DNA of 64,000 nucleotides, taken from positions 558,001-622,000 of the forward strand of contig NZ_JAJNCX010000001.1 of NCBI RefSeq assembly GCF_021026315.1, given 5' to 3'. Origin of the DNA: Rhizobium sp. C4. Its GTDB lineage: Bacteria > Pseudomonadota > Alphaproteobacteria > Rhizobiales > Rhizobiaceae. Positions 4,860 through 61,054 of the stretch are shown piece by piece. A program made the translations under genes and the position numbers. The notes under the pieces were generated by a model that saw nothing but the letters and a program-made list of their open reading frames with translations, was not told the DNA's origin and did no database searches. How positions within the stretch are numbered: the stretch's first letter is position 1; every line of letters begins with the position of its first letter.

Positions 4860-5079
4860 TTGATCGTTTAACCCGGTCTTATGGCTGGTGGCTGAACGGA
4901 GGGTCCGGACATTCGTGTCCGACATGGAAGCAGAAGCTTTCCGGCCTCCCGTGTCTCCGCTCTCGACCGTATGAGACAAAACGCTTTTCTTGCCGCCCCG
5001 TCAAAAGGGCCACTGAACAGTCGTTGAGGCTTGGCGCCATGCCCGGGTTTTGATCGAAACGCAAGAAAGGCAAAATACA
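4860..5079 (+). promoter_or_regulatory. Long 5' leader of rpsF-rpsR mRNA with UUCG hairpin
   Basis: The predicted leader holds CGGACA-TTCG-TGTCCG (4906-4921), a six-base-pair stem capped by a UUCG tetraloop. No convincing reading frame is present. Known S6:S18 autoregulatory leaders occur upstream of rpsF in many bacteria, so this is a reasonable place for one. I did not identify the conserved S6:S18 binding element itself. Confidence 0.4.
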
Positions 5080-5526
5080 ATGGCACTTTACGAACATGTA
5101 TTCCTTGCCCGCCAGGACGTTACCCCGCAGCAGGTCGAAGGCCTTGTAGAAAACTACAAGGGCGTGATCGAAGCAAACGGTGGCAAGGTCGGCCGGGTCG
5201 AGAACTGGGGCCTCAAGTCCCTCACCTACCGCATCAAGAAGAACCGCAAGGCTCACTACGTCCTGATGGACATCACGGCTCCGGCTGCAGCGATCCAGGA
5301 AATGGAACGCCAGATGCGCATCTCGGAAGACGTTCTTCGCTACATGACCGTTTCGGTCGAAGCACACGAAGAAGGCCCGTCTGCCATGATGCAGAAGCGC
5401 GACCGTGACGACCGTCCGCGTCGTGATGGCGACCGTCCCGATCGTGGCCCGCGTGAAGGCGGCTTCAACCGCGATCGTGGTGACCGCGACGACCGTCCGC
5501 GCCGTCCGCGCGAAGACCGTGCATAA
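5080..5526 (+). CDS. rpsF: 30S ribosomal protein S6
   Basis: S6 binds 16S rRNA together with S18 in the platform of the small subunit. The start [13 protein letters not shown] is the family N-terminus and has an AGAAAGG ribosome binding site 8 bases upstream; an in-frame ATG at 5050 would add ten unrelated residues. The protein is 148 residues long. The first ~100 form the S6 fold, and the last ~45 are a tail dominated by Arg and Asp (for example [17 protein letters not shown]), as in other rhizobial S6 proteins. rpsR follows after 12 bases, so the two are co-transcribed. Confidence 0.97.
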
Positions 5527-5538
5527 GGAGATATGACC

Positions 5539-5784
5539 ATGGCTGATGCATCTTCCCCGGCACGTCGCCCGTTCCACCGCCGTCGCAAGACGTGCCCCTT
5601 CTCCGGCGCCAACGCTCCGAAGATCGACTACAAGGACGTCCGTCTCCTGCAGCGCTACATTTCCGAGCGCGGCAAGATCGTTCCGTCCCGCATCACGGCT
5701 GTTTCGCAGAAGAAGCAGCGCGAGCTGGCCAAGGCCATCAAGCGCGCCCGCTTCCTCGGCCTGCTGCCCTACGTTCTGGCCTAA
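5539..5784 (+). CDS. rpsR: 30S ribosomal protein S18
   Basis: S18 is the partner of S6 in the 30S platform. The protein has 81 residues with the family core [20 protein letters not shown] followed by a basic C-terminus. Two in-frame ATGs are present (5533 and 5539). The ribosome binding site AAGGAG at 5525-5530 lies only 2 bases from the first but 8 from the second, so 5539 is chosen. The gene follows rpsF directly in the operon, and a stem-loop follows it. Confidence 0.97.
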
Positions 5785-5798
5785 GCCAGTCTGAAGTC

Positions 5799-5829
5799 CG
5801 GCGGAGGCTTCTGAACGAGGCCTCCGCCG
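5799..5829 (+). other. Intercistronic stem-loop between rpsR and the DUF2232 gene
   Basis: CGGCGGAGGC (5799-5808) and GCCTCCGCCG (5820-5829) form a perfect 10-bp stem with an 11-nt loop. No T-run follows, so it is more likely an mRNA processing or stability element than a full terminator. It would separate the high expression of rpsF-rpsR from the membrane protein gene downstream. Confidence 0.55.
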
Positions 5830-5939
5830 ATCCCTTCCGCGATGGGCGCGGATCGGAACCAAACAAAACCCATGTTGGGATTGAATGGCGAAAGCCCCTT
5901 CCCTAACTGCCTGAGCAAGAGCAACGGCAGGACAGCGAG

Positions 5940-16727: not shown

Positions 16728-18467
16728 ATGTCGTTTGCAAGTCGTCTTTTCGGTCCGGCAGTTCCAAGACAGATCGGCGATCTGAGCAATCTCGCAGCCC
16801 TCGCCGTCGTGGATGACAGCGGCAGGATCATCTGGGCGAACGACGCATTTGCAGACCTTGCCGGATGTTCCGCCACAGGCGAGACCCTGCCCCGGCTGCT
16901 GTCCCGAGGCGCGCAGGAAACTTCGTCCGCGCTTGCCACGGCAAAGACCGGGCAGATCAACGCCACTCTCAACGGCCATGATGTCGTGCTGCGTGTTGCC
17001 GGCTCGAAGGCCGGGCAGCGGCTGGTGACTGTCGAGCCTGCCGCGCCGGAAACAGCACCCTATGGCAGCGCCTTTGACGTCATCTGGAACGTGCAGGCGG
17101 TTGCGGTCTTCGCCAGCGATGGCAAGCTTCTGGATGCAAGCCCGCTCTATGTTGCGGTGACCGGCTACAGCCTCGCGGAACTGAAGACGATGTCGGCGGC
17201 GCGGCTTGCCGATCCGCAGGAGATCAAGAGCGGCGCGCATGCGCAGTTCTGGCAGCGGGTGGCGCAGGAGGCCCGGGTCTCGCAGCTTGTCAGGCAGGTG
17301 AGCAAGACGGGAGACATTCTGTTCCTTCAGAGCAGCTTCTACCGCATCCCTGCTGAGGACGGGCAGCCTGAGAAAATTCTGCAATTTGCCGACGACACCA
17401 CATACCGGATCAACTCGATTGCCAGGCTCGATGGCGCGATCCGCACGCTGTCCGAAGGCGATCTCATGGCAGACATCAAGGAGACGCTGTTCCCGACCGT
17501 CGACGGGACACGGCTTCTCTTCAATCAGGCGCTCAAGAAGCTGCGCAACGCCTTCCATGCCGCACAGGCGACAGCCGATGCGGTGAGCGCCGCCACCGGC
17601 GAAATCACGGATGCCGCGCGCAATTTCTCGCAGCGTGCAGAGCAGCAGGCCGCCGCCATCGAGGAGACGGCAAACTCGCTGAACCAGGTGACCGAGGCCG
17701 CCTCAGCCGCCTCCATGCGCGCCGAGGAAGCCGGCCGGGTGGTGAACGCGACGCGTCGCGAGGCCGAGCAGTCCTCCAGCATCGTCACCCGCGCCATCGA
17801 CGCCATGGGGCGGATCGAGCAATCCTCCGCCGAAATCGGCAATATCATCGGGGTCATCGACGAGATCGCCTTCCAGACCAACCTGCTGGCGCTGAATGCC
17901 GGCGTCGAAGCCGCGCGTGCCGGCGACGCGGGCAAGGGCTTTGCCGTCGTTGCCCAGGAGGTTCGCGAACTGGCGCAGCGCTCGGCCAATGCCGCCAAGG
18001 AAATCAAGGCACTGGTCGGGGCGTCGGGTGAAAATGTGCGCACCGGCGTTTCGCTCGTTGACGAGACGGGCCGTGCGCTCACCAATATCGCCAGCCAGAT
18101 CGCCATCATCGATTGCCATGTGGATGCCATCGCCACCGCGACCGGCGAACAGGCACGCAGCATCCGCGACATCAATGGCGTCGTCGACCGCATGGAAGGC
18201 GGCACGCAGCAGAATGCCGCGATGGCCGAAGAGACCACCGCCTCCATCCAGTGTCTGAACGACGAGATCTCCAACCTGGTGAGCATGCTGTCGCAGTTCC
18301 GCACCGGCACTGCCGCAGGCAGTCATGCGCCGCGCCCTGCAATCCGGGCGGCCGTCACGACACGACCGGCCGCGGCTCCTGTCCGCCGACCGGCTGCTCC
18401 CCCCTCCCGGCCGGCTTACTCGCGCACCGCGACCGCAGCCAAGCAGCAGGACTGGGAAGAGTTCTGA
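16728..18467 (+). CDS. Soluble methyl-accepting chemotaxis protein with PAS domain and C-terminal CheR-binding pentapeptide
   Basis: A 579-residue chemoreceptor without membrane segments, so probably cytosolic. A degenerate PAS-like region lies at about residues 20-110, and a clearer PAS domain at about 125-235 (VTGYSLAEL). A HAMP-like linker follows, then the signalling domain with the hairpin tip IDEIAFQTNLLALNAGVEAA. A Pro/Ala-rich linker ends in QDWEEF, matching the aromatic-x-x-aromatic pentapeptide that tethers CheR/CheB. The start MSFASRLF has GGGAGG upstream; a longer frame from 16689 lacks one. The PAS domain could sense redox, oxygen or energy state; the ligand is not predictable. 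Confidence 0.92.
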   Translation: MSFASRLFGPAVPRQIGDLSNLAALAVVDDSGRIIWANDAFADLAGCSATGETLPRLLSRGAQETSSALATAKTGQINATLNGHDVVLRVAGSKAGQRLVTVEPAAPETAPYGSAFDVIWNVQAVAVFASDGKLLDASPLYVAVTGYSLAELKTMSAARLADPQEIKSGAHAQFWQRVAQEARVSQLVRQVSKTGDILFLQSSFYRIPAEDGQPEKILQFADDTTYRINSIARLDGAIRTLSEGDLMADIKETLFPTVDGTRLLFNQALKKLRNAFHAAQATADAVSAATGEITDAARNFSQRAEQQAAAIEETANSLNQVTEAASAASMRAEEAGRVVNATRREAEQSSSIVTRAIDAMGRIEQSSAEIGNIIGVIDEIAFQTNLLALNAGVEAARAGDAGKGFAVVAQEVRELAQRSANAAKEIKALVGASGENVRTGVSLVDETGRALTNIASQIAIIDCHVDAIATATGEQARSIRDINGVVDRMEGGTQQNAAMAEETTASIQCLNDEISNLVSMLSQFRTGTAAGSHAPRPAIRAAVTTRPAAAPVRRPAAPPSRPAYSRTATAAKQQDWEEF

Positions 18468-18594
18468 CCGCTCGGACCATCTGTTGCTCCGTCTGCATAA
18501 CCACGATGCACGGGGTGCTGCATCTTTCGGCATAAAACTGGCAAACGTCAGTCTTTGATGGGGCGACGCCTGTTTTGTCCGCATCTGCCTCTCA

Positions 18595-18610
18595 TGGCAT
18601 GGTGCTTGCA
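18595..18610 (+). promoter_or_regulatory. Sigma-54 (RpoN) promoter of the amino acid ABC transporter
   Basis: TGGCATGGTGCTTGCA has the -24 GG and -12 GC exactly 10 bases apart and closely matches the consensus TGGCACG-N4-TTGCW. It lies 33 bases before the start codon of the binding-protein gene. Expression would need RpoN and an activator such as NtrC, whose upstream site I did not find. Confidence 0.82.
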
Positions 18611-18642
18611 TTTCGCTGAGCAGATCACAACAAGGAGTGACC

Positions 18643-19431
18643 ATGCTCAGAAGACAATTCATCGCCATCGCCGCCGCAACGTTTGCAGCCACCGCAGCAC
18701 TGACGGGCGCCGCCCATGCCGATGCGCTGGCCGACATCACCAAGAGCGGCACGCTGAAAGTGGCCGTCCCGCAGGACTTCCCGCCGTTCGGCAGCGTCGG
18801 TGCGGACATGGCCCCGCAGGGCTATGACATCGACATGGCGAAGCTGATTGCCGAAAAGCTTGGCGTGAAGGTCGAACTCGTGCCGGTCACCAGCGCCAAC
18901 CGCATTCCCTATCTCCAGACCAAGAAGGTCGATCTCGTCATTTCGAGCCTCGGCAAGAACCCGGACCGCGAAAAAGTCATCGACTTCTCCTCAGCCTATG
19001 CGCCCTTCTATAACGGCGTCTTCGCGCCGGCTGACGCCGCCATCAAGTCGGCAGCCGACCTTTCGGGCAAGACGATTGCCGTCACGCGCGGTGCCGTCGA
19101 GGATCTGGAACTGACCAAGGTTGCGCCTGCTGACGCGACGATCAAGCGCTATGAGGACAATAACGGCACGATCTCCGCCTTCCTCTCGGGCCAGGTCGAT
19201 GCGGTTGCCACCGGCAACGTCGTTGCCGCCGCGATCATCGCCAAGAACCCGCCGAAGAAGCCGGAAATGAAGTTCCTCATCAAGAACTCGCCCTGCTTCG
19301 TCGGTCTCAACAAGGACGAGCCCGCCCTTCTCGAAAAGCTGAACGCGATCATCGCGGAGGCCAAGAAGGACGGTTCGCTGAACAAGATCGCCGAAAAGTG
19401 GCTGAAGGCCCCGCTTCCTGCCGATCTCTGA
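18643..19431 (+). CDS. Amino acid ABC transporter, periplasmic substrate-binding protein
   Basis: A 262-residue binding protein of the polar amino acid (HAAT) class. It has a signal peptide (LRRQFIAIAAATFAATAAL, cleavage probably after AAHA) and the family opening SGTLKVAVPQDFPPFG. Further landmarks are GYDIDMAKLIAEKLGV and DLVISSLGKNPDREKVIDFS. AAGGAG lies 5 bases before the ATG; a GTG two codons earlier would overlap that site. It heads the operon of two permeases and an ATPase behind a sigma-54 promoter. The amino acid bound cannot be told from sequence. Confidence 0.93.
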   Translation: MLRRQFIAIAAATFAATAALTGAAHADALADITKSGTLKVAVPQDFPPFGSVGADMAPQGYDIDMAKLIAEKLGVKVELVPVTSANRIPYLQTKKVDLVISSLGKNPDREKVIDFSSAYAPFYNGVFAPADAAIKSAADLSGKTIAVTRGAVEDLELTKVAPADATIKRYEDNNGTISAFLSGQVDAVATGNVVAAAIIAKNPPKKPEMKFLIKNSPCFVGLNKDEPALLEKLNAIIAEAKKDGSLNKIAEKWLKAPLPADL

Positions 19432-37562: not shown

Positions 37563-39707
37563 TCAGTGCTTCTTGCGAAGCTCGCGATTGGCCTTTTCGG
37601 CATCCTCATCCGATTGCGAGATCTTGCCCGGGACGCCGAAGACCTGGCCGGGTGCAATCCGGTTCGGATTGTTGATCAGATCCTGGTTGGCGAGATAGAT
37701 CGTGGTGTAGCGCACGCCACGGCCATAGACACGGCGGGAGATCTGCCACAGCGTGTCGCCCTTGCGGATGATGACGCTGTCCTTGCTCTCCTTCAGCGGG
37801 GCCTGCTCGATCGACTTCGGCTGATCGGCGGCCGGTGCGGCTGTCGCCGGCGCGTTGGCGGCCTGTTGCGTCGTCGTGGCTGACGCCGCAGCGGAGCTCG
37901 TTTCGGCAGCAGCCGGGGCAGCAGGCGCTGCAGGCTTGGCAACATCCGGCATCGCCTCGCGTGCGGCGGCTTCGATCGAGGCGATGGCCGCACCGACGCC
38001 CTTCGGATCGTCGCCTGCTGCCTGCAGGAGCTTCAGCGCATCGGCGGCCGACTTGCCGACCTTGGCGGCGAGTGCTGCGACATCGGGGCCGGCTTCGGCA
38101 GCGGGCTTGAAATCGGCCAGCGCCTTGAGGGCAAACTGCGTTGCCGAGCGCGCTGCGGCCAGCTGGTCCTTTGCCGGCGTCTTCCCGTCGGCAAACAGGC
38201 CCTTGAGCAGGACAAGCGCCTTGGCGGCCTCTTCGCGCAGCTGCTCAAGCTGGCCCATGGCGGGCTGCGAGGCGGCACTTGCGCCATTGTTGCCAGCAGG
38301 CTTGGCCGTATCGGCCACGACCGAGACCTGATCTCCGGCCGGGCGATTGAACGGAACCGAGGCGCGAACGACGACCTTCGACCCGGACTGATCCATTAGG
38401 TCGGCCCGGATGATGTGATTGCCGGTGGAAAGCGGCATGGTGTTTTCAGCTTCGAAATGGCCGCTGTCGGCGGACTTCGTCGTTTCGATCAGCTTGTCGT
38501 CGGCAAAGACCTGAACGGTCGCCTGCGGACGCGTGCTGCCGGCCACGAAGATCTTGTCGCCCTCGATCTCCACCGCATCGATGCGGATGGCGGCGGCTTC
38601 GGCGGGCTTCTGCATGGCATCGGCTGAGGCCGTCTGAGCCTGCTGGGCCGCCGGGACCGCCGGCGCGCTGCTCGCCAGCGTCTTCGAAGCGTCAGGCAGC
38701 GGCGGCAGGGTCGTTGCCGAAGCACCTGCGGCGGCAGGCTGGGCGTCCGTCGCCTGCGCGACCTTGTTGTCCGCATCGGGCTTGGTCAGAATTCGGCTTG
38801 CCTCGCCGGGCTTGGTGACCATGGCGAGCAGCTTGCCGTCCTTGCCATTCGGAACCGAAACGGTGGCGACTTCGGCCGATGCCGACGTCTTGCCATCCGC
38901 GCCGGTCGCTCTGAGCACCAGCGAGTGGTCGCCCGGCTCCAGCGGCTTGTCGAGGGCAATGGCGAAATCGCCGCTCGGGCCGGCGACGGCCGAGCCGATG
39001 ACCTTGTCGCCATCGAGAACCTCGACCTTGGCCTTCGGCGACGCGCCGCCGGCAATCACGGTGGAACCGTCCTTTTCGACGCGCAGCACGTCGAAATTCG
39101 GAAGGGTCGCTTCAATCGCGTCGGGGGCTGCCGGCTTGCTGGGTGCCGTGGCGGCAGGCGTTGTCCCATTTCGCGCGGTCTTGTCGCTGAAGAGAGCGGC
39201 AATCTGAGCGGCGGCGTCTGCGGCCTTGCCGGCATCCTCGGGCATCGACTTCAGTGCCGAAAGCGCCTTGGTGGCGCTGGCCGAAAGGCCGGTCACCAGA
39301 CCGCCAACGGTCGCATCAGCGCCTTCCGGGGCCTTGAAGTCGGCAATGGCCTTGAGGGCAGCCTGAAGCTTCGTCTTGGCATCGGCCAGTTCGGCATCCG
39401 TCGGCACCTTGCCATTGGCATAGAGCGCGCGCAGGCTCTCGGAGGCGGCACTCGCATCGGCCTTCAGCCGGTTCATCTTCTGCAGGAGTTCGGCACCGGA
39501 GGCAGCGCCCGTTGCCTTGCTCGCCGTGTCGACGGGGCTGCCTGCAGGCGTGTTCGCGGCTGGCTGGGTGGTTTCAGGCACCGTCTTTGCCGCATCGCCG
39601 GCGACATCCTTTCCGCCATTGATTTGCGGCAGGACGAAAAAGATCATGACGGCCGATGCAATCACAAGCACCAGGATCGCGAGCCAGACGGCGCGATTGT
39701 TCTGCAT
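37563..39707 (-). CDS. Membrane-anchored LysM protein with duplicated helical and Ig-like modules
   Basis: A 714-residue envelope protein. A single N-terminal membrane segment (WLAILVLVIASAVMIFFVL) anchors it with the rest outside. A helical module lies at ~72-174, two Ig-like domains at ~201-286 and ~374-454, and a second helical module at ~485-586. Ala/Pro linkers and a C-terminal LysM domain at ~644-694 (DSVIIRKGDTLWQISRRVYG) follow. The two helical modules are paralogous: both share G-K-x-P ... Q-x-ALKA-x-ADFK. LysM binds peptidoglycan. The ATG has GGAG 6 bases upstream; the frame extends four codons further to a TTG. Similar proteins are common in Rhizobiales, with no defined function. 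Confidence 0.85.
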   Translation of the reverse strand: MQNNRAVWLAILVLVIASAVMIFFVLPQINGGKDVAGDAAKTVPETTQPAANTPAGSPVDTASKATGAASGAELLQKMNRLKADASAASESLRALYANGKVPTDAELADAKTKLQAALKAIADFKAPEGADATVGGLVTGLSASATKALSALKSMPEDAGKAADAAAQIAALFSDKTARNGTTPAATAPSKPAAPDAIEATLPNFDVLRVEKDGSTVIAGGASPKAKVEVLDGDKVIGSAVAGPSGDFAIALDKPLEPGDHSLVLRATGADGKTSASAEVATVSVPNGKDGKLLAMVTKPGEASRILTKPDADNKVAQATDAQPAAAGASATTLPPLPDASKTLASSAPAVPAAQQAQTASADAMQKPAEAAAIRIDAVEIEGDKIFVAGSTRPQATVQVFADDKLIETTKSADSGHFEAENTMPLSTGNHIIRADLMDQSGSKVVVRASVPFNRPAGDQVSVVADTAKPAGNNGASAASQPAMGQLEQLREEAAKALVLLKGLFADGKTPAKDQLAAARSATQFALKALADFKPAAEAGPDVAALAAKVGKSAADALKLLQAAGDDPKGVGAAIASIEAAAREAMPDVAKPAAPAAPAAAETSSAAASATTTQQAANAPATAAPAADQPKSIEQAPLKESKDSVIIRKGDTLWQISRRVYGRGVRYTTIYLANQDLINNPNRIAPGQVFGVPGKISQSDEDAEKANRELRKKH

Positions 39708-39870
39708 TTCTGTCTCCAAACGAGCGCCTGCGCCGACGTTGCGGGCAGCATATCCCCATCGTTAAAGAGCTAAACTCTTCTCCATGGTTTCACAAGGTAT
39801 ATCAACGAAATCCGGTTAACGAGACGGCCGGTTCTTGACGGGCGGGACGGCGAAAGTCCATGCTCGCGGC

Positions 39871-46706: not shown

Positions 46707-48323
46707 TCACTCCGCCGCGACCTTCCCGGCCAATTCCCGGTTCTTCATCAACTTGTAGACAATACTATCCATCAGCGCCTGAAACGACGCGTCGATGATG
46801 TTGTCCGAGACGCCGACAGTCCACCATCTGGCGCCAGTATCGTCGGCGGATTCGATGAGGACGCGGGTGATGGCTTCGGTGCCGCCATTGAGGATACGGA
46901 CCTTGTAGTCCACCAGTTCGAGATCGGCGATTTCCGGCTGGTAGCGGCCGAGATCCTTGCGGATGGCGATATCAAGCGCGTTGACCGGGCCGTGGCCTTC
47001 GGCCACCGACATGACCGTTTGGCCGTCGATGACCGTCTTCACAACGGCTTCCGACACGGTCTTCAAATGACCATTGGCGTCGAAGCGGCGCTCGACCATG
47101 ACGCGGAAACTGTCGACCTGGAAGAAGTCCGGCACGGAGCCGAGCGTGCGCCGCGCCAGCAGTTCGAAGCTCGCATCCGCGCCCTCATAGGCATAGCCGG
47201 TCGCCTCGCGCTCCTTCACGATGGTGATCAGCGTATCGAGGCGCGGATCGTCCTTGCCGACCTCGATGCCGCGGCGCTTCAGCGCATTGATGAAATTTGA
47301 CTTGCCGCCCTGGTCCGACACCATGACCTTGCGCAGGTTGCCGACCGTTTCCGGCTCGACATGTTCATAGGTGCGCGGGTCCTTCAGCAGCGCCGAGGCG
47401 TGGATGCCGGCCTTGGTGGCGAAGGCCGAGGAGCCGACATAGGGCGCCTGCGTTTCGGGTGAACGGTTCAGCAGCTCGTCGAAATCGTGGCTGAGCTTGG
47501 TCAGACCCTGCAGCGCCTCGCGGTCGATGCAGGTTTCGAAGCGCTCGCTGAAGGCCGGCTTCAGGACAAGCGTCGGGATGATGGTCACGAGATTGGCATT
47601 GCCGCAGCGTTCGCCGATGCCGTTCAGCGTGCCCTGGATCTGGCGGACGCCTGCCTCGACCGCCGCGAGCGAATTGGCGATCGCCTGCCCCGTATCGTTA
47701 TGCGCATGGATGCCGAGCCGGTCGCCGGGCACGCCTGCAGCAATCACGGCGGCGACGATCTCGCGGACTTCCGACGGCTGCGTGCCGCCATTGGTGTCAC
47801 AGAGCACGATCCAGCGCGCGCCAGCCTCATAGGCCGTCTTCGCACAGGCGAGCGCGTAAGCCGGGTTCGCCTTGTAGCCATCGAAGAAATGCTCGCAATC
47901 GATCATCGCGCCCTTGCCGGCCTCAAGCGCTGCCTTGACCGAAAGCGTGATGCATTCGAGGTTTTCCTCGTTCGTGCAGCCGAGCGCGACCTTGACGTGA
48001 TAGTCCCAGCTCTTGGCGACGAAACAGATATGGTCCGACTTGGCGCGCAGCAGTTCGTTGAGCCCCGGATCGTTGGACACCGAGACGCCGGCGCGCTTCG
48101 TCATGCCGAAGGCGACGAAGCCGGCGCGGCCGGTGCGCTTCTTGGAAAAGAAAGCTGTGTCGGTCGGGTTCGCCCCCGGATAGCCGCCCTCGACATAGTC
48201 AAGGCCGAAGGCATCCAGCATATTGGCAATAGCAATCTTGTCCTCGACGGAAAAATCCACGCCGGGCGTCTGCTGCCCGTCGCGAAGGGTCGTGTCGAAG
48301 AGGTAGATGCGTTCTTTTGCCAT
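46707..48323 (-). CDS. cimA: Citramalate synthase (LeuA-like, CimA family)
   Basis: Condenses pyruvate (or a 2-oxo acid) with acetyl-CoA; CimA gives citramalate for isoleucine synthesis. The 538-residue protein opens with RIYLFDTTLRDGQQTPGV, the metal- and substrate-binding motif of the family. It contains HAHNDTGQAIANSLAAVEAG and GIGERCGNANL and has the C-terminal LeuA dimer regulatory domain (residues ~390-530). The branch with YVEGGYPGANPTD is annotated citramalate synthase. The start MAKERIYL is chosen; the frame extends 25 codons further into the preceding gene without support. Confidence 0.92.
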   Translation of the reverse strand: MAKERIYLFDTTLRDGQQTPGVDFSVEDKIAIANMLDAFGLDYVEGGYPGANPTDTAFFSKKRTGRAGFVAFGMTKRAGVSVSNDPGLNELLRAKSDHICFVAKSWDYHVKVALGCTNEENLECITLSVKAALEAGKGAMIDCEHFFDGYKANPAYALACAKTAYEAGARWIVLCDTNGGTQPSEVREIVAAVIAAGVPGDRLGIHAHNDTGQAIANSLAAVEAGVRQIQGTLNGIGERCGNANLVTIIPTLVLKPAFSERFETCIDREALQGLTKLSHDFDELLNRSPETQAPYVGSSAFATKAGIHASALLKDPRTYEHVEPETVGNLRKVMVSDQGGKSNFINALKRRGIEVGKDDPRLDTLITIVKEREATGYAYEGADASFELLARRTLGSVPDFFQVDSFRVMVERRFDANGHLKTVSEAVVKTVIDGQTVMSVAEGHGPVNALDIAIRKDLGRYQPEIADLELVDYKVRILNGGTEAITRVLIESADDTGARWWTVGVSDNIIDASFQALMDSIVYKLMKNRELAGKVAAE

Positions 48324-48334
48324 GGTAAGCTTCT

Positions 48335-48760
48335 CTAACTGGTCAGTCCGATGGGTAAAACATCCCATCTGTTCTCTTGCGCGTAAGCGGTCGTCCAATT
48401 CATCCCCGAAAACCGGGGATCAAACCTGACTCCGCTAACTTCATATTCATCCAGCTTTTCGTTTAAACGACTCTGGCTGAAAATAAAAAACCTATTCGAG
48501 GCACCTGCAGGAACGTAAGCAAGCACATAAAATAGATTGTCAGTTGGCTCTTTCTTCTTAATCTGCCAGAAGTTTTTCGACTTCTGGCCTTTGACATCGA
48601 TCAGAAATGTCTTCTTTCTGTCCGGAGAAAGAACGAACAAATCCGCCAATGGAGTATTGTGCCCCATCGTGAAACCGACATCGCAACCCAACTTGCAGAG
48701 CTCGCTCGCGACTGCGAATTGTGCGGCCCATTGGGTTTGATGGCGTGAACCAGCGGCCAT
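48335..48760 (-). CDS. PD-(D/E)XK nuclease-fold protein of unknown role
   Basis: A 141-residue protein. E20 in a first helix, D40 in PLADLFVLSP and D55-x-K57 in FLIDVKGQ give the full set of catalytic-type residues of the PD-(D/E)XK nuclease fold. GC is about 42 % over 48421-48660 by hand count, far below the ~60 % around it, a clear sign of transfer. It starts immediately at the pip stop and ends 12 bases before cimA, so it interrupts two housekeeping genes. No methylase or specificity subunit is adjacent. It could be a solitary endonuclease or a DNA-processing protein. Confidence 0.68.
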   Translation of the reverse strand: MAAGSRHQTQWAAQFAVASELCKLGCDVGFTMGHNTPLADLFVLSPDRKKTFLIDVKGQKSKNFWQIKKKEPTDNLFYVLAYVPAGASNRFFIFSQSRLNEKLDEYEVSGVRFDPRFSGMNWTTAYAQENRWDVLPIGLTS

Positions 48761-50085
<1,325 letters not shown>

Positions 50086-50330: not shown

Positions 50331-50807
50331 TCACCGCCCCTCCGGCCATTCATCCGTGTCGTGATCCGGATGCTGGAACGATTTCAGATCGGCGAGGAAG
50401 GGCGCATTCGGCAGGTCCTCCTCCGTCGGATGCCCCGGCAGATCTGGCAGATGATCGACATAGGAGATCTTGGCCTCCGTGCCGTATTGCAGGGTGGGCA
50501 CGATGCGTTCGGGCTCATCGAAAGCCCCGATGGCGATTGCCATGCCGTCGGGCGCCTCATAGGTCAGCGGCGTGCCGCAGGCCTCGCAGAAGCCGCGCTG
50601 AACCACGCTCGACGACTGGAAATGTTTCGGTGCGCCGCGCGTCCAGCGGAAGTTCAGGCCGCGCACGGAGGCGAGCGGCGCATAGAAGCCGCCGAACGCC
50701 TTCTGGCACATGCGGCAATGGCAAATCGAGGCATCCTTCAGGTCGCCCTCGACACGAAAGCGGATCGCACCGCACTGGCAGCCGCCGGTATGAATGGTGT
50801 CAGACAT
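50331..50807 (-). CDS. GFA-family zinc protein (second of two)
   Basis: A 158-residue Mss4-like protein of the glutathione-dependent formaldehyde-activating (GFA) family. Zinc ligands are visible in [20 protein letters not shown] and FCEACGTPLTY. It is a paralog of the gene just upstream; both end in WQ/FQHPDHDT-x-x-WPE. The start ATG at 50807 has GGAGGAG upstream; a GTG two codons earlier would overlap that site. Enzymatic formaldehyde activation is doubtful for most members, so only the fold is assigned. Confidence 0.87.
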   Translation of the reverse strand: MSDTIHTGGCQCGAIRFRVEGDLKDASICHCRMCQKAFGGFYAPLASVRGLNFRWTRGAPKHFQSSSVVQRGFCEACGTPLTYEAPDGMAIAIGAFDEPERIVPTLQYGTEAKISYVDHLPDLPGHPTEEDLPNAPFLADLKSFQHPDHDTDEWPEGR

Positions 50808-50820
50808 GCGCACTCCTCCC

Positions 50821-51291
50821 TCAATCCTCGGGCCATGTCTCCGTGTCGTGATCGGGATGCTGCCAGCTGTCTATGCCGGCGAAGAACTCCGTCATGCCGG
50901 GGCTTTCGAAGGGCGGCTTGTCGAACAGGCGGTCGATCCACGGCAGGCGCTTGGAATGGTTGACCTGGATCTGCGGCTCGAACAGTTCCGGATGGTCGAA
51001 GGCGCCGATGGCAAGCTCGATGCCTTCCGGGTGGCGATAGGTCAGCGGCGTGCCGCATTTCTCGCAAAAGCCGCGATGCACCTGCTTGGACGAGCGGAAC
51101 CAGGTCGGCTGGCCGCGCGTCCAGGTCAGATGCGCCTGATCGGCCGTCACGAAGGCGCCGAAGAACGACCCGAACGCCTTCTGGCACATACGACAATGAC
51201 AGATCGACGGCCGCCCGAGATGGCCGGCACGAAACCGGACAGCGCCGCATTGGCAGCCGCCGGAATGATAGTCTAGCGCTTCACTTCCCAT
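50821..51291 (-). CDS. GFA-family zinc protein (first of two)
   Basis: A 156-residue GFA protein with [21 protein letters not shown] and [11 protein letters not shown] as zinc ligands. It is followed after 13 bases by its paralog, a tandem duplication. Its first 19 bases overlap the end of the short CysS-tail-like gene, so all three are likely one transcript. Confidence 0.87.
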
Positions 51292-51473
51292 GTCGTCACC
51301 CGCTCCCCGGTTGTCTTGTCCTTTGAATCCTTTAGCTGGATGCCTTGAGACGCCAGTTGATCGCGCAGGCGGTCGGCTTCGGCCTCGTTACCGGCTTTCA
51401 GCATTTCGGCGCGCATGGCGATCAGCGCTTCGATGCCGGCCGTCAGGGCGCGTTGCGGATCAGCGTCAGTCAT
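51273..51473 (-). CDS. Stand-alone CysS C-terminal-like small protein
   Basis: A 66-residue frame. Its sequence ([20 protein letters not shown] followed by [13 protein letters not shown]) matches the C-terminal tail of cysteinyl-tRNA synthetases, as in the cysS upstream ([20 protein letters not shown]). It has its own ATG with GGAG seven bases upstream, and its stop overlaps the GFA start. It may be a genuine small gene or a cysS fragment that kept its frame. Whether it binds tRNA-Cys or anything else is unknown. Confidence 0.62.
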
Positions 51474-51582
51474 TGTGACGCTCCAGCGCCCAAGTGGCCG
51501 TCATCCTCGCCCCTGTGGCGAGGATCTGCTGAGCGTGCTGCGGACTGGACGGTGCGGCTTATCACGGCCAGCGCAACGGGCG

Positions 51583-51708
51583 CCCTCTTCTCCCCCTGGG
51601 GAGAAGTGCCGAGCAGCGCGAGGCGATGAGGGGTCGGGATGGCACGGCGGTTATGGGAACCCCTCATCCGACCCTTCGGGCCACCTTCTCCCCAAGGGGA
51701 GAAGAGGG
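51583..51708. repeat. Inverted pair of a rhizobial intergenic repeat
   Basis: Two ~50-bp copies in opposite orientation: 51583-51636 (CCCTCTTCTCCCCCTGGGGA onward to GATGAGGGG) and 51659-51708 (CCCCTCATCCGACCCTTCGG onward to GAGAAGAGGG). Each contains a CTTCTCCCC/GGGGAGAAG hairpin. A third fragment with CATCCTCG...CGAGGAT hairpin precedes it at about 51500-51525. The element fills the gap between the cysS relic and the CysS-tail-like gene. Confidence 0.7.
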
Positions 51709-51723
51709 AGCGCGCGGCGGCCC

Positions 51724-51765
51724 TCACCGCTTGACCTCCCACGTTATGATACGCTCGCCGGTCAT
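51724..51765 (-). pseudogene. Relic of a second cysS 3' end
   Basis: Directly after the cysS stop, in the +1 frame, the minus strand encodes [13 protein letters not shown] and a stop. The same frame continues backwards into the last codons of cysS as DLEPKE. The sequence is a typical CysS ending, close to [13 protein letters not shown] of the stand-alone tail gene, and unlike the current cysS ending [12 protein letters not shown]. It looks like the tail of the original gene left behind when the 3' part of cysS was replaced. Confidence 0.6.
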
Positions 51766-53273
51766 TTCTTTCGGCTCCAAGTCGTTGTGCGCTTTCCCGT
51801 CTCAGGGTCTTTTCCATCTTTAACTTCAATGCCTTTCGCAACCAGCGCATCCCTGATTGCATCTGCGCTCTTGAATTCCTTCTCTTCCAAGAACTGCAAA
51901 CGCTGAAAAAGCAAAAGCTCGACTGAATCAGAATCAACAAATGATCTGTCAATGGAATGACGCCGATCCCATTCGGCAATGGGAAGTCTCAAGCCCAAGA
52001 ATGTTAGGCTCTCATCCATGTACCGATTGTTGACTTGCCCCGCGAGCCCACCAAACTTCGACATGAAATGCATAGTTTTCATCAATTCAGCCGAATTTAA
52101 ATCGTCGCAAAGCGCTTCTTCGACCTTCGGATGAATCCCCTGCGGCTTCCCATCGCTTTCGTCAGCAATAGCATTCCAGCGGCGTAGCAATCCTTCCGCC
52201 TCCTCCAACCTCTTCACGCTGAAATCGATCGGCTCGCGATAATGCGTCATCAGCATGGCCAGCCGCAGCACCTCGCCCGGCCATTTGCGACCACCGAACT
52301 TCTCCGTCTCCAGCAGCTCGTTGATGGTGACGAAGTTGCCCTCGGACTTGGACATCTTCTTGCCCTCGACCTGCAGGAAGCCGTTATGCATCCAGATGTT
52401 CGCCATCACGCCGGTGTCGAAGGCGCAGCAGGATTGGGCGATTTCGTTTTCGTGGTGCGGGAAGATCAGGTCGAGGCCGCCACCGTGGATGTCGAACTGG
52501 TGCGGGCGCGCCTTTGCCTTCGGGGAAAGCCGGTCCTTGATCTCCTGCCAGAGAAAGCGGTCGGACATGGCGGAGCATTCGATATGCCAGCCGGGGCGGC
52601 CGTAGATCGAGATGGTTTCGCCATCGACCGTGAACGCGGCGTCCCAGCCAGGCTGGTCGGCGGCACTTTCCTTCCAGAGCACGAAATCGGCAGGGCTCTT
52701 CTTGTGTGCCTCGACGGCGATGCGGGCGCCGGCCTGCTGGTCCTCCAGCTTGCGCTTGGAGAGCTCGCCATAGGCCTCCATCGACGGAACCGAGAAGAGC
52801 ACTTCCCTGCCCTCAGCACCGGTCGCGACATAGGCATGACCGCGGTCGATCAGCGACTGGGCAATCGCGATCATGCCGCCGATATTCTCCGTCGCGCGCG
52901 GCTGGACGGTCGGGGACAGGCAGCCGAGGGTCGCGACATCGGCGACATATTGCGTCTCGGTTTTCTCGGTGACGCGGCGAATCGCCTCGTTCAGGGAGAG
53001 ATCGGGGAAGTCGCGCAGCGCGCGTGCGTTGATCTTGTCGTCGACATCCGTGATGTTGCGAACATAGGTGACATGGTTTTCCCCATAGACGTGACGCAGC
53101 AGCCTGAAGAGCACATCGAAGACGATGGCGGGGCGCGCATTGCCGATATGGGCATAATCGTAAACGGTCGGGCCGCAGACATAGAGCCGCACGTTTTCGG
53201 CATCGATGGGTTCGAAAACCTGTTTTTCGCGGGCGAGCGTATTGTAGAATTTCAAGGTCGGCTGTTCAGCCAT
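51762..53273 (-). CDS. cysS: Cysteinyl-tRNA synthetase, with a GC-poor 3' third
   Basis: Charges tRNA-Cys. The 503-residue protein has HIGN (H42; class I HIGH motif), KKMSKSEGN, and zinc ligands including C33 and the GWHIECSAM and HHENEIAQS regions. The start [11 protein letters not shown] has an AAGGA-type ribosome binding site. GC by hand count is about 61 % over 52261-52560 but about 47 % over 51781-52140. The anticodon-binding C-terminal part (from about residue 360) therefore seems to come from another source. A relic tail follows the stop. A 14-codon leader frame with two Cys codons precedes it. Confidence 0.93.
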
Positions 53274-60208: not shown

Positions 60209-60250
60209 TTGACGTGTGCGCATTCTACACGCGTTGTCAAAAATTGCCAA
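60209..60250 (-). promoter_or_regulatory. Promoter and operator of the parDE operon
   Basis: On the minus strand, TTGGCA (60250-60245) and TAGAAT (60227-60222) are 17 bases apart. The -10 is covered by an inverted repeat: CGTGT with ACACG, and outer TTGAC (60209) with GTCAA (60240). Binding of ParD there would block transcription. Confidence 0.7.
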
Positions 60251-60337
60251 TCATCGAACAGCTGCTTTGCAAACAAGAAGGCCGACCGCCCTTTCGGGCG
60301 ATCGACCTTGCGTGACATGATCTGTGGAACCCGTCGC

Positions 60338-60526
60338 TTACATGTAAGCGGCGGGGCTCTTTTCGATGTGGCGACGGATGGCCCGGCGTGCCTCTTCGGC
60401 GTCGCGATAGCGGGCTCCATCCAGATCGATGACCGGGAATTTGACGGCGATGAACTTCATCGCATCACCATCGGGAATCACGATCCCCACCGGAATACCG
60501 GCGTGCTCAATGACCTGCTTGTTCAT
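60338..60526 (-). CDS. Small conserved protein (62 residues)
   Basis: A short soluble protein, MNKQVIEHAGIPVGIVIPDG followed by MKFIAVKFPVIDLDGARYRD and AEEARRAIRRHIEKS. GGGAGA lies 7 bases before the ATG. The shape, a small beta-rich half and a helical end, is like other 60-residue proteins of Rhizobiales. I know of no function. Confidence 0.7.
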   Translation of the reverse strand: MNKQVIEHAGIPVGIVIPDGDAMKFIAVKFPVIDLDGARYRDAEEARRAIRRHIEKSPAAYM

Positions 60527-61054
60527 AGGTATTCTCCCGCAGCAGAACGCTGCTTGATCTCAAGTCTTCATTTGCGAATTGAATTGCAGACGAACCGGGC
60601 GACCCGGGTCACATTCGGCAAAGCTGGCGGCAAAGCTGGCGACACCTCGCGCCAGAGATCATCGTCACGCGGGATACACGCCAGGAGAGAACATCACGAA
60701 CGTTGTTGTCGAACACCATACATTCCTCCAAACGGCTTGACCGGCCCCTCAGGATCACGGTCCGCAAGCCGCTCAAGGGCTCTTCCGAACCACTCCGACT
60801 TGCGTGGCCAAAAGGTAGGATTCGACCCCGCTTTCGTCAACGGGTCCAATGTGAAATTTAGAATAAAATTTTTTCCATCTGCGAATATTACGGATTGAAG
60901 ACAAATTCTGTTCCGCCTGCCATAATTAGGGAAATCAGAATCTCCAAATCGCCATACTTCTTTATTGCGGCGCACACCGGATATGGAGCTTTTTTTTCGC
61001 AGCCGCGAGCGGCCTTGCGGGCCTCGCAGACCGGCCCGCGCGGAATGAAACGAT
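60527..61054. other. Gene-poor, partly AT-rich intergenic region
   Basis: No convincing gene is seen in these 528 bases. An exact tandem repeat of GGCAAAGCTGGC occurs at 60617-60628 and 60629-60640. Bases 60841-60900 are only about one-third GC. Open frames cross the region in both directions but resemble no family. It may be the remains of a decayed gene. Confidence 0.5.

Follow-up and report, generated by a model that had tools for sequence, protein, structure and literature searches.

Can one half of an essential tRNA synthetase be replaced while the other half stays in place? Synthetases are usually regarded as conserved enzymes that are transferred as whole genes, and it is the cysS gene of the window (the whole 64-kb stretch of DNA analysed here) that raises the question. 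A sequence-only reading had counted a fall in GC content inside one intact reading frame of this gene. It had proposed that homologous recombination brought in a foreign C-terminal (anticodon-binding) part and kept the host tail as a relic. The gene (51762–53273, minus strand) encodes a CysRS of 503 aa; its translation runs uninterrupted across the GC drop, and recounting at the same coordinates gave 61.3% GC at 52261–52560 and 47.2% at 51781–52140. When GC was calculated along the 64 kb in 360-nt segments (step 60), 4 of 1061 segments had 47.5% or less, the C-terminal part of cysS (hereafter the module) among them, and the GC content at third codon positions fell from 81% in the catalytic part to 55% in the module and 50% in its last 40 codons. 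The lowest-GC 360-nt segment of the window is another one (44.2% from 48301, within 48181–48840). The protein scores 391.3 bits as a whole with TIGR00435 (curated cut-off 340) and 331 bits with PF01406 (cut-off 27), and carries HIGN at residues 42–45 and KMSKS at 306–310, which we take to be its catalytic motifs.

Comparison of the cysS 3' end with the nearest relatives revealed an abrupt break. Relative to cysS of the same-genus genome G003, segmentation divides the protein into residues 1–364 and 365–503 (delta lnL 111), and the identities on the two sides (Table 1) bear out the view that a divergent, AT-rich anticodon-binding half is joined to a resident catalytic half. The modules of four close same-genus genomes (G001, G003, G004 and G005) are 89–95% identical to one another, whereas that of the window gene is 43–44% identical to them. 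In a fifth same-genus gene, that of G002, the module is itself divergent and low in GC, with 29% identity to the window gene.

As a control, 51 ORFs of the window were compared with G003, with a cut-off of at least 0.85 identity outside and less than 0.5 inside a divergent block. Four ORFs were retained, namely cysS, 17706–18809, 46710–48398 and 4882–5862. The block of 17706–18809 is larger than that of cysS, and this ORF looks like a spurious antisense frame; in 46710–48398 and 4882–5862 the divergent block consists of the first 40 columns. Weaker blocks were present in 37566–39719 (57 columns, 0.44 vs 0.84) and 60209–60895 (70 columns, 0.26 vs 0.69). Among the real-looking genes of these 51 ORFs, a block as large (139 residues) and sharp as this is unique to cysS.

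Table 1. Features of the cysS locus (positions in the window)
Feature	Position	Strand	Evidence
cysS 5' part, residues 1–364, resident catalytic half with HIGN and KMSKS	52182..53273	-	351/364 identical to G003; Pfam tRNA-synt_1e 9.5e-99; GC 61.1% (52191–53273)
cysS 3' part, residues 365–503 and stop, divergent half low in GC, made up of the anticodon-binding helical bundle and a CysS_C-like tail	51762..52181	-	48/139 identical to G003; GC 48.0% (51762–52190)
Relic B, 12-codon end with stop from another CysRS ([12 protein letters not shown])	51724..51762	-	nt matches: 31/36 with several other genera, 26/36 with the four close same-genus genes, 29/36 with G002
Dispersed repeat (imperfect palindrome) between tails	51583..51712	-	DNA fold z -3.8 (51571–51725)
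Tail C 5' part: start codon, GGAG 7 nt upstream, GNE for conserved KN[FW], unlike same-genus genes	51378..51473	-	at most 68% nt identity to any of 144 cysS (75 nt, ungapped)
Tail C 3' part, 34 codons and stop, displaced resident cysS tail	51273..51377	-	last 102 nt 91–95% nt identity to four close same-genus genes

The module is followed by remnants of other tails. A second CysS-type ending immediately after the stop, in the +1 frame, had been described from the sequence, and an ending is indeed present: directly after the cysS stop, the other frame reads ...[14 protein letters not shown]. The CysRS-like part is confined to the last 12 codons (relic B); DLEPKE is the divergent 3' end translated out of frame. 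The frame, which begins one base before that of cysS, is -1 (or +2) instead of +1. Relic B and the cysS stop codon share one base, the first of the former and the last of the latter. Since it matches other genera better than the close same-genus genes, relic B is probably not of the host-tail type, although 36 nt are little evidence. The idea that old 3' ends were left behind stands, but the ending named as the host tail is probably not the host's, which is found instead in a 66-aa ORF further downstream (51273–51473). For the palindromic repeat between the tails, at least 24, 49 and 40 matches were found in the window genome (G000), G002 and G003, respectively (40 candidates scored per genome). 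As an indication that the G000 and G002 loci share an origin it was judged weak, another G000 copy being equally similar (88%). Rfam gave nothing above the gathering score at the locus.

The 66-aa ORF, on the minus strand, is a third CysRS tail (tail C) that the first reading had missed. It scores 39.5 bits with CysS_C (5.9e-10; cut-off 23), compared with 21.2 bits for the enzyme itself. Its 3' part overlaps the start of a GFA-family gene, and because the same junction is found in G004 and G005 and the DNA identity to the close same-genus genes is so high (Table 1), this part is, as judged from the alignments, the displaced resident tail. Two adjacent ORFs at this end, 50331–50813 and 50821–51291, are about 70% alike in DNA, the second being GFA by Pfam. 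By the same kind of comparison, tail C is itself mosaic, with a resident-type 3' part and an unrelated-looking 5' part. One clean displacement thus does not explain it; either the incoming DNA already had two tails, or there were two successive events.

Tail C might also be a working small gene instead of a relic, encoding a trans-acting, free-standing CysRS tail. The ORF is intact, with an ATG and, upstream of it, a GGAG motif (Table 1), and the GN[EQ] form is common to the free-standing tails of the window genome, G002 (GNQ) and G250 (GNE), whereas a pattern search over all 144 in-gene tails found it in none of them; these carry a basic residue and an aromatic one (the exact pattern in 90 of the 144, the other 54 being without GN[EQ] when read by eye). 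Between the 25-codon 5' parts of the G000 and G002 tails, 15 of 26 differences fall at third positions. However, the comparison of the G000 and G250 tails gives no such third-position signal (7, 7, 9), the relic of G681 keeps KNW, and adjacent free-standing tails are rare, occurring in 4 of 394 family genomes in a tail search that scraps as short as relic B escape, with one of the four (G261) a truncated 45-codon frame. A trans-acting role is therefore, in our opinion, improbable. Purifying selection on tail C was considered and dropped, the codons being too few.

The sequence-only reading had expected a swapped anticodon-binding end to be unusual. On the contrary, the same block has been switched in 6 of 9 genera compared, each with at least one pair of genes more than 75% identical in the catalytic part but less than 50% identical in the module. 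The extreme pairs (catalytic/module identity) are L164/L179 (96%/38%), L192/L210 (96%/36%), L195/L196 (97%/43%) and L001/L003 (97%/43%), and pairs with 96–97% catalytic and 36–43% module identity occur in g1, g108, g65 and g17. The choice of genera was partly non-blind (the window itself belongs to g1, a relic led to the choice of g108, and variation in open frames to that of g65, g30 and g20); among the other four (g99, g78, g17 and g29), a switch was seen in one (g17). For 7 of 9 pairs, segmentation put the two borders at a shared pair of anchors or only a few residues away, the right-hand anchor being the conserved tail RL..KN[FW]xEADRIRDEL..., whereas the window gene has the left anchor only; L192/L210, with an N-terminal extension, had no usable segmentation. 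Relatedness among low-GC modules extends across genera (L075/L165, 70%; L031/L192, 49%; L053/L204, 33% over 201 aa) and, in one case, across families (L177/L027, 49%); modules shared by related genera may have been inherited rather than exchanged.

Relic tails were present at 4 of 141 loci scanned (those of the window genome, G002, G250 and G261), and all 4 belong to a set of 14 loci, out of 90, in which GC falls by more than 8 points in the module (Fisher p 4e-4, with a cut-off set after seeing the data). Further relics lie behind low-GC modules in other families (G681 and G688), so that relic tails after cysS were found in 6 genomes in all, every one with an AT-rich block. The G261 relic, which the Fisher test includes, is a frame of 45 codons; it lies in tandemly repeated sequence containing an N and may represent local duplication. 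Downstream of cysS, this locus (L165) shows tandem cysS tail pieces and palindromic repeats, with N in the assembly. Since G250 and G261 were fetched for their second tail and some genera for varying frames, the frequencies of swaps and relics are biased. Second tail matches in G148 and G246 (within long frames of 1164 and 654 aa), G187 (a 22-codon scrap on another contig) and G610 (a 61-aa frame at a contig end) were not counted.

Separate trees of the two halves, suggested earlier as a check, settled the position of only one of them. In a quick tree of the catalytic part, the window cysS groups with the four close relatives (99*). In the tree of the C-terminal module, the end branch of the window gene is 2.18, compared with 0.015–0.046, and the AU test does not reject sisterhood of this module with the same-genus modules (p-AU 0.50). 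As this placement is indecisive, it is the sharpness of the border, the relics present in the DNA and the recurrence of the swap that make the case for replacement, rather than topology. Both the AU result and the identity of 43–44% still shared with the four close modules would agree with a resident C-terminal half that evolved in place, very fast and towards low GC. Against this, the end branch of the same gene in the catalytic tree is only 0.027, the border is sharp, point mutation could not produce the 12-codon relic B or the separate tail of resident type found downstream, and in one case a low-GC module is related across families (L177/L027). We consider evolution in place to be highly improbable. 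An assembly chimera or contamination, conceivable in a draft of 50 contigs, is scarcely credible, since the locus is inside a contig of 720,630 bases and comparable anatomy was seen in G002, G250 and G681.

Because a genome search of the draft found a single cysS, the hybrid has to serve. Its swapped half corresponds to the region after the catalytic domain, which we take to consist of the helical bundle and the C-terminal tRNA-binding region. Structure prediction gave a model of the whole chain with a mean pLDDT of 92, and the best PDB match was the E. coli CysRS-tRNA complex (1u0b_B, 5.5e-37). Compared with this bacterial CysRS (1LI5/1U0B), the window protein aligns over nearly its full length, the swapped half included, but its C-terminal half is highly divergent, and CysS_C (PF23493) scores 21.2 bits with the whole protein and 23.3 bits with the C-terminal 143 aa, around the cut-off of 23. 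Residues D390, D391, L392, R458, D471 and L477, invariant in a 37-sequence alignment, are kept in the swapped half. The tRNA-Cys is identical in the window genome, G001, G003–G005, G250 and G112, and that of G002 differs at 3 of 74 bases; co-evolution with the tRNA was therefore rejected for the window gene. Since this is the only CysRS found, the invariant residues are kept, the model is good and the tRNA-Cys is that of the close relatives, the hybrid is presumably functional.

The explanation that we favor, and consider very probable, is recurrent replacement of the cysS C-terminal half anchored in conserved cysS sequence, which here occurred by horizontal transfer with the right-hand join past the tail. 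A single-copy cysS would have received a new 3' half, i.e. anticodon-binding bundle and tail, through a left crossover in or just after the conserved sequence [17 protein letters not shown]. It is just after this sequence that the identity break with G003 is observed, and a homologous crossover at this point is likely. In a clean module swap, the right border would fall at the conserved tail, as in the 7 pairs above. In the window gene, the divergent tract runs to the gene's own stop, which abuts relic B, and the join to resident DNA would be further down, in or near the second tail copy; identity breaks a second time within the conserved tail sequence of tail C, where a homologous joint is possible. 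The gene would thus end on the new tail, with the remnants B (12 codons) and C (66 aa) behind it, the old tails having stayed because the right-hand join missed the tail. Plain homologous recombination, as first proposed, agrees with the left border at conserved sequence, but the right join does not appear to come from simple homologous exchange within the tail of the gene itself. It may be accounted for by homology-facilitated illegitimate recombination or by the transfer of a locus already holding two tails, in one or more steps.

Homology-facilitated illegitimate recombination, as outlined in PMC3240628 and PMC5361080, resembles the present case in that one end is anchored by homology, the other is joined without a matching crossover and the old sequence is shifted downstream. 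The window case differs in lying within a synthetase gene with its frame intact, and its illegitimate joint is only presumed. Such recombination, with displaced old ends, has been proposed for T6SS arrays (PMC5361080). The displaced immunity genes and orphan 3' ends of T6SS and Rhs loci (PMC5361080) likewise combine a constant 5' part with a variable 3' part and displaced old ends downstream, but cysS is a single-copy housekeeping enzyme gene without a known toxin or immunity role. The mosaic synthetase and its relics are real, and the window case is a variant of known recombination patterns. A literature search by titles and abstract openings, covering few subscription journals, found no publication on swapped CysRS C-terminal halves.

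The collections searched for a donor contained no close match to the module. The best match in a plasmid collection was 37%, in 5 chromosome-sized records, and none was found in phages and viral contigs. Identities were at most 49% among the matches listed for 297 genomes of the family sample, and mostly 29–45% (49–52% over short pieces) among those listed for the order sample. A scan of genome contigs yielded at least 80 loci, all with no more than 67% among the matches listed.

Why this block is exchanged so often may be explained in two ways, each of which would do: structural tolerance between two conserved anchors, or diversifying selection. In the latter case, which would come in addition to the replacement, something that attacks or binds CysRS or tRNA-Cys (a toxin, phage protein or inhibitor) would favor rare modules, and these would be exchanged in the manner of surface antigens. 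The same block is exchanged recurrently, the 51 window ORFs compared with G003 contain no equally large sharp block elsewhere (the spurious-looking antisense ORF aside), and cysS is closely followed by a PIN/MazE-type pair in G001 and, by eye, in G002, G003 and G250. However, this pair is absent at the same place in G000, G004 and G005, no attacker was identified, the tRNA-Cys of G000 is unchanged relative to its close relatives, and structural tolerance with conserved anchors could yield the same pattern in a comparison that covers cysS alone among synthetases. We therefore regard selection as a tentative and rather unlikely addition. It and the trans-acting tail are compatible with replacement as the best explanation, and the likelihoods given to the several readings do not sum to one. 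Doubtful, too, is the wider proposal that CysRS in this order carries an actively exchanged hypervariable tRNA-recognition cassette whose diversity is kept by an attacker and which may travel with a trans-acting free-standing tail.

In several genera, then, the tRNA-binding half of an essential synthetase has been exchanged, at the same conserved anchors, for modules less than 50% identical. Relics record some of these events, and the tRNA-Cys that the window gene serves is unchanged. Two questions become testable: the extent to which CysRS-tRNA recognition can vary, and whether rare modules are selected. Whole cysS is best avoided as a tree marker in this order. In G001, the PIN-domain toxin and MazE-type antitoxin pair is at L079 2440–3122, between cysS and the GFA gene. 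In the order sample, two matches to the CysRS-tail query were seen in all 11 listed genomes of genus g185, and a second match also in G754 and G610; of 7 stretches fetched from g185, 6 were parsed as cysS, with modules of 151–322 aa.
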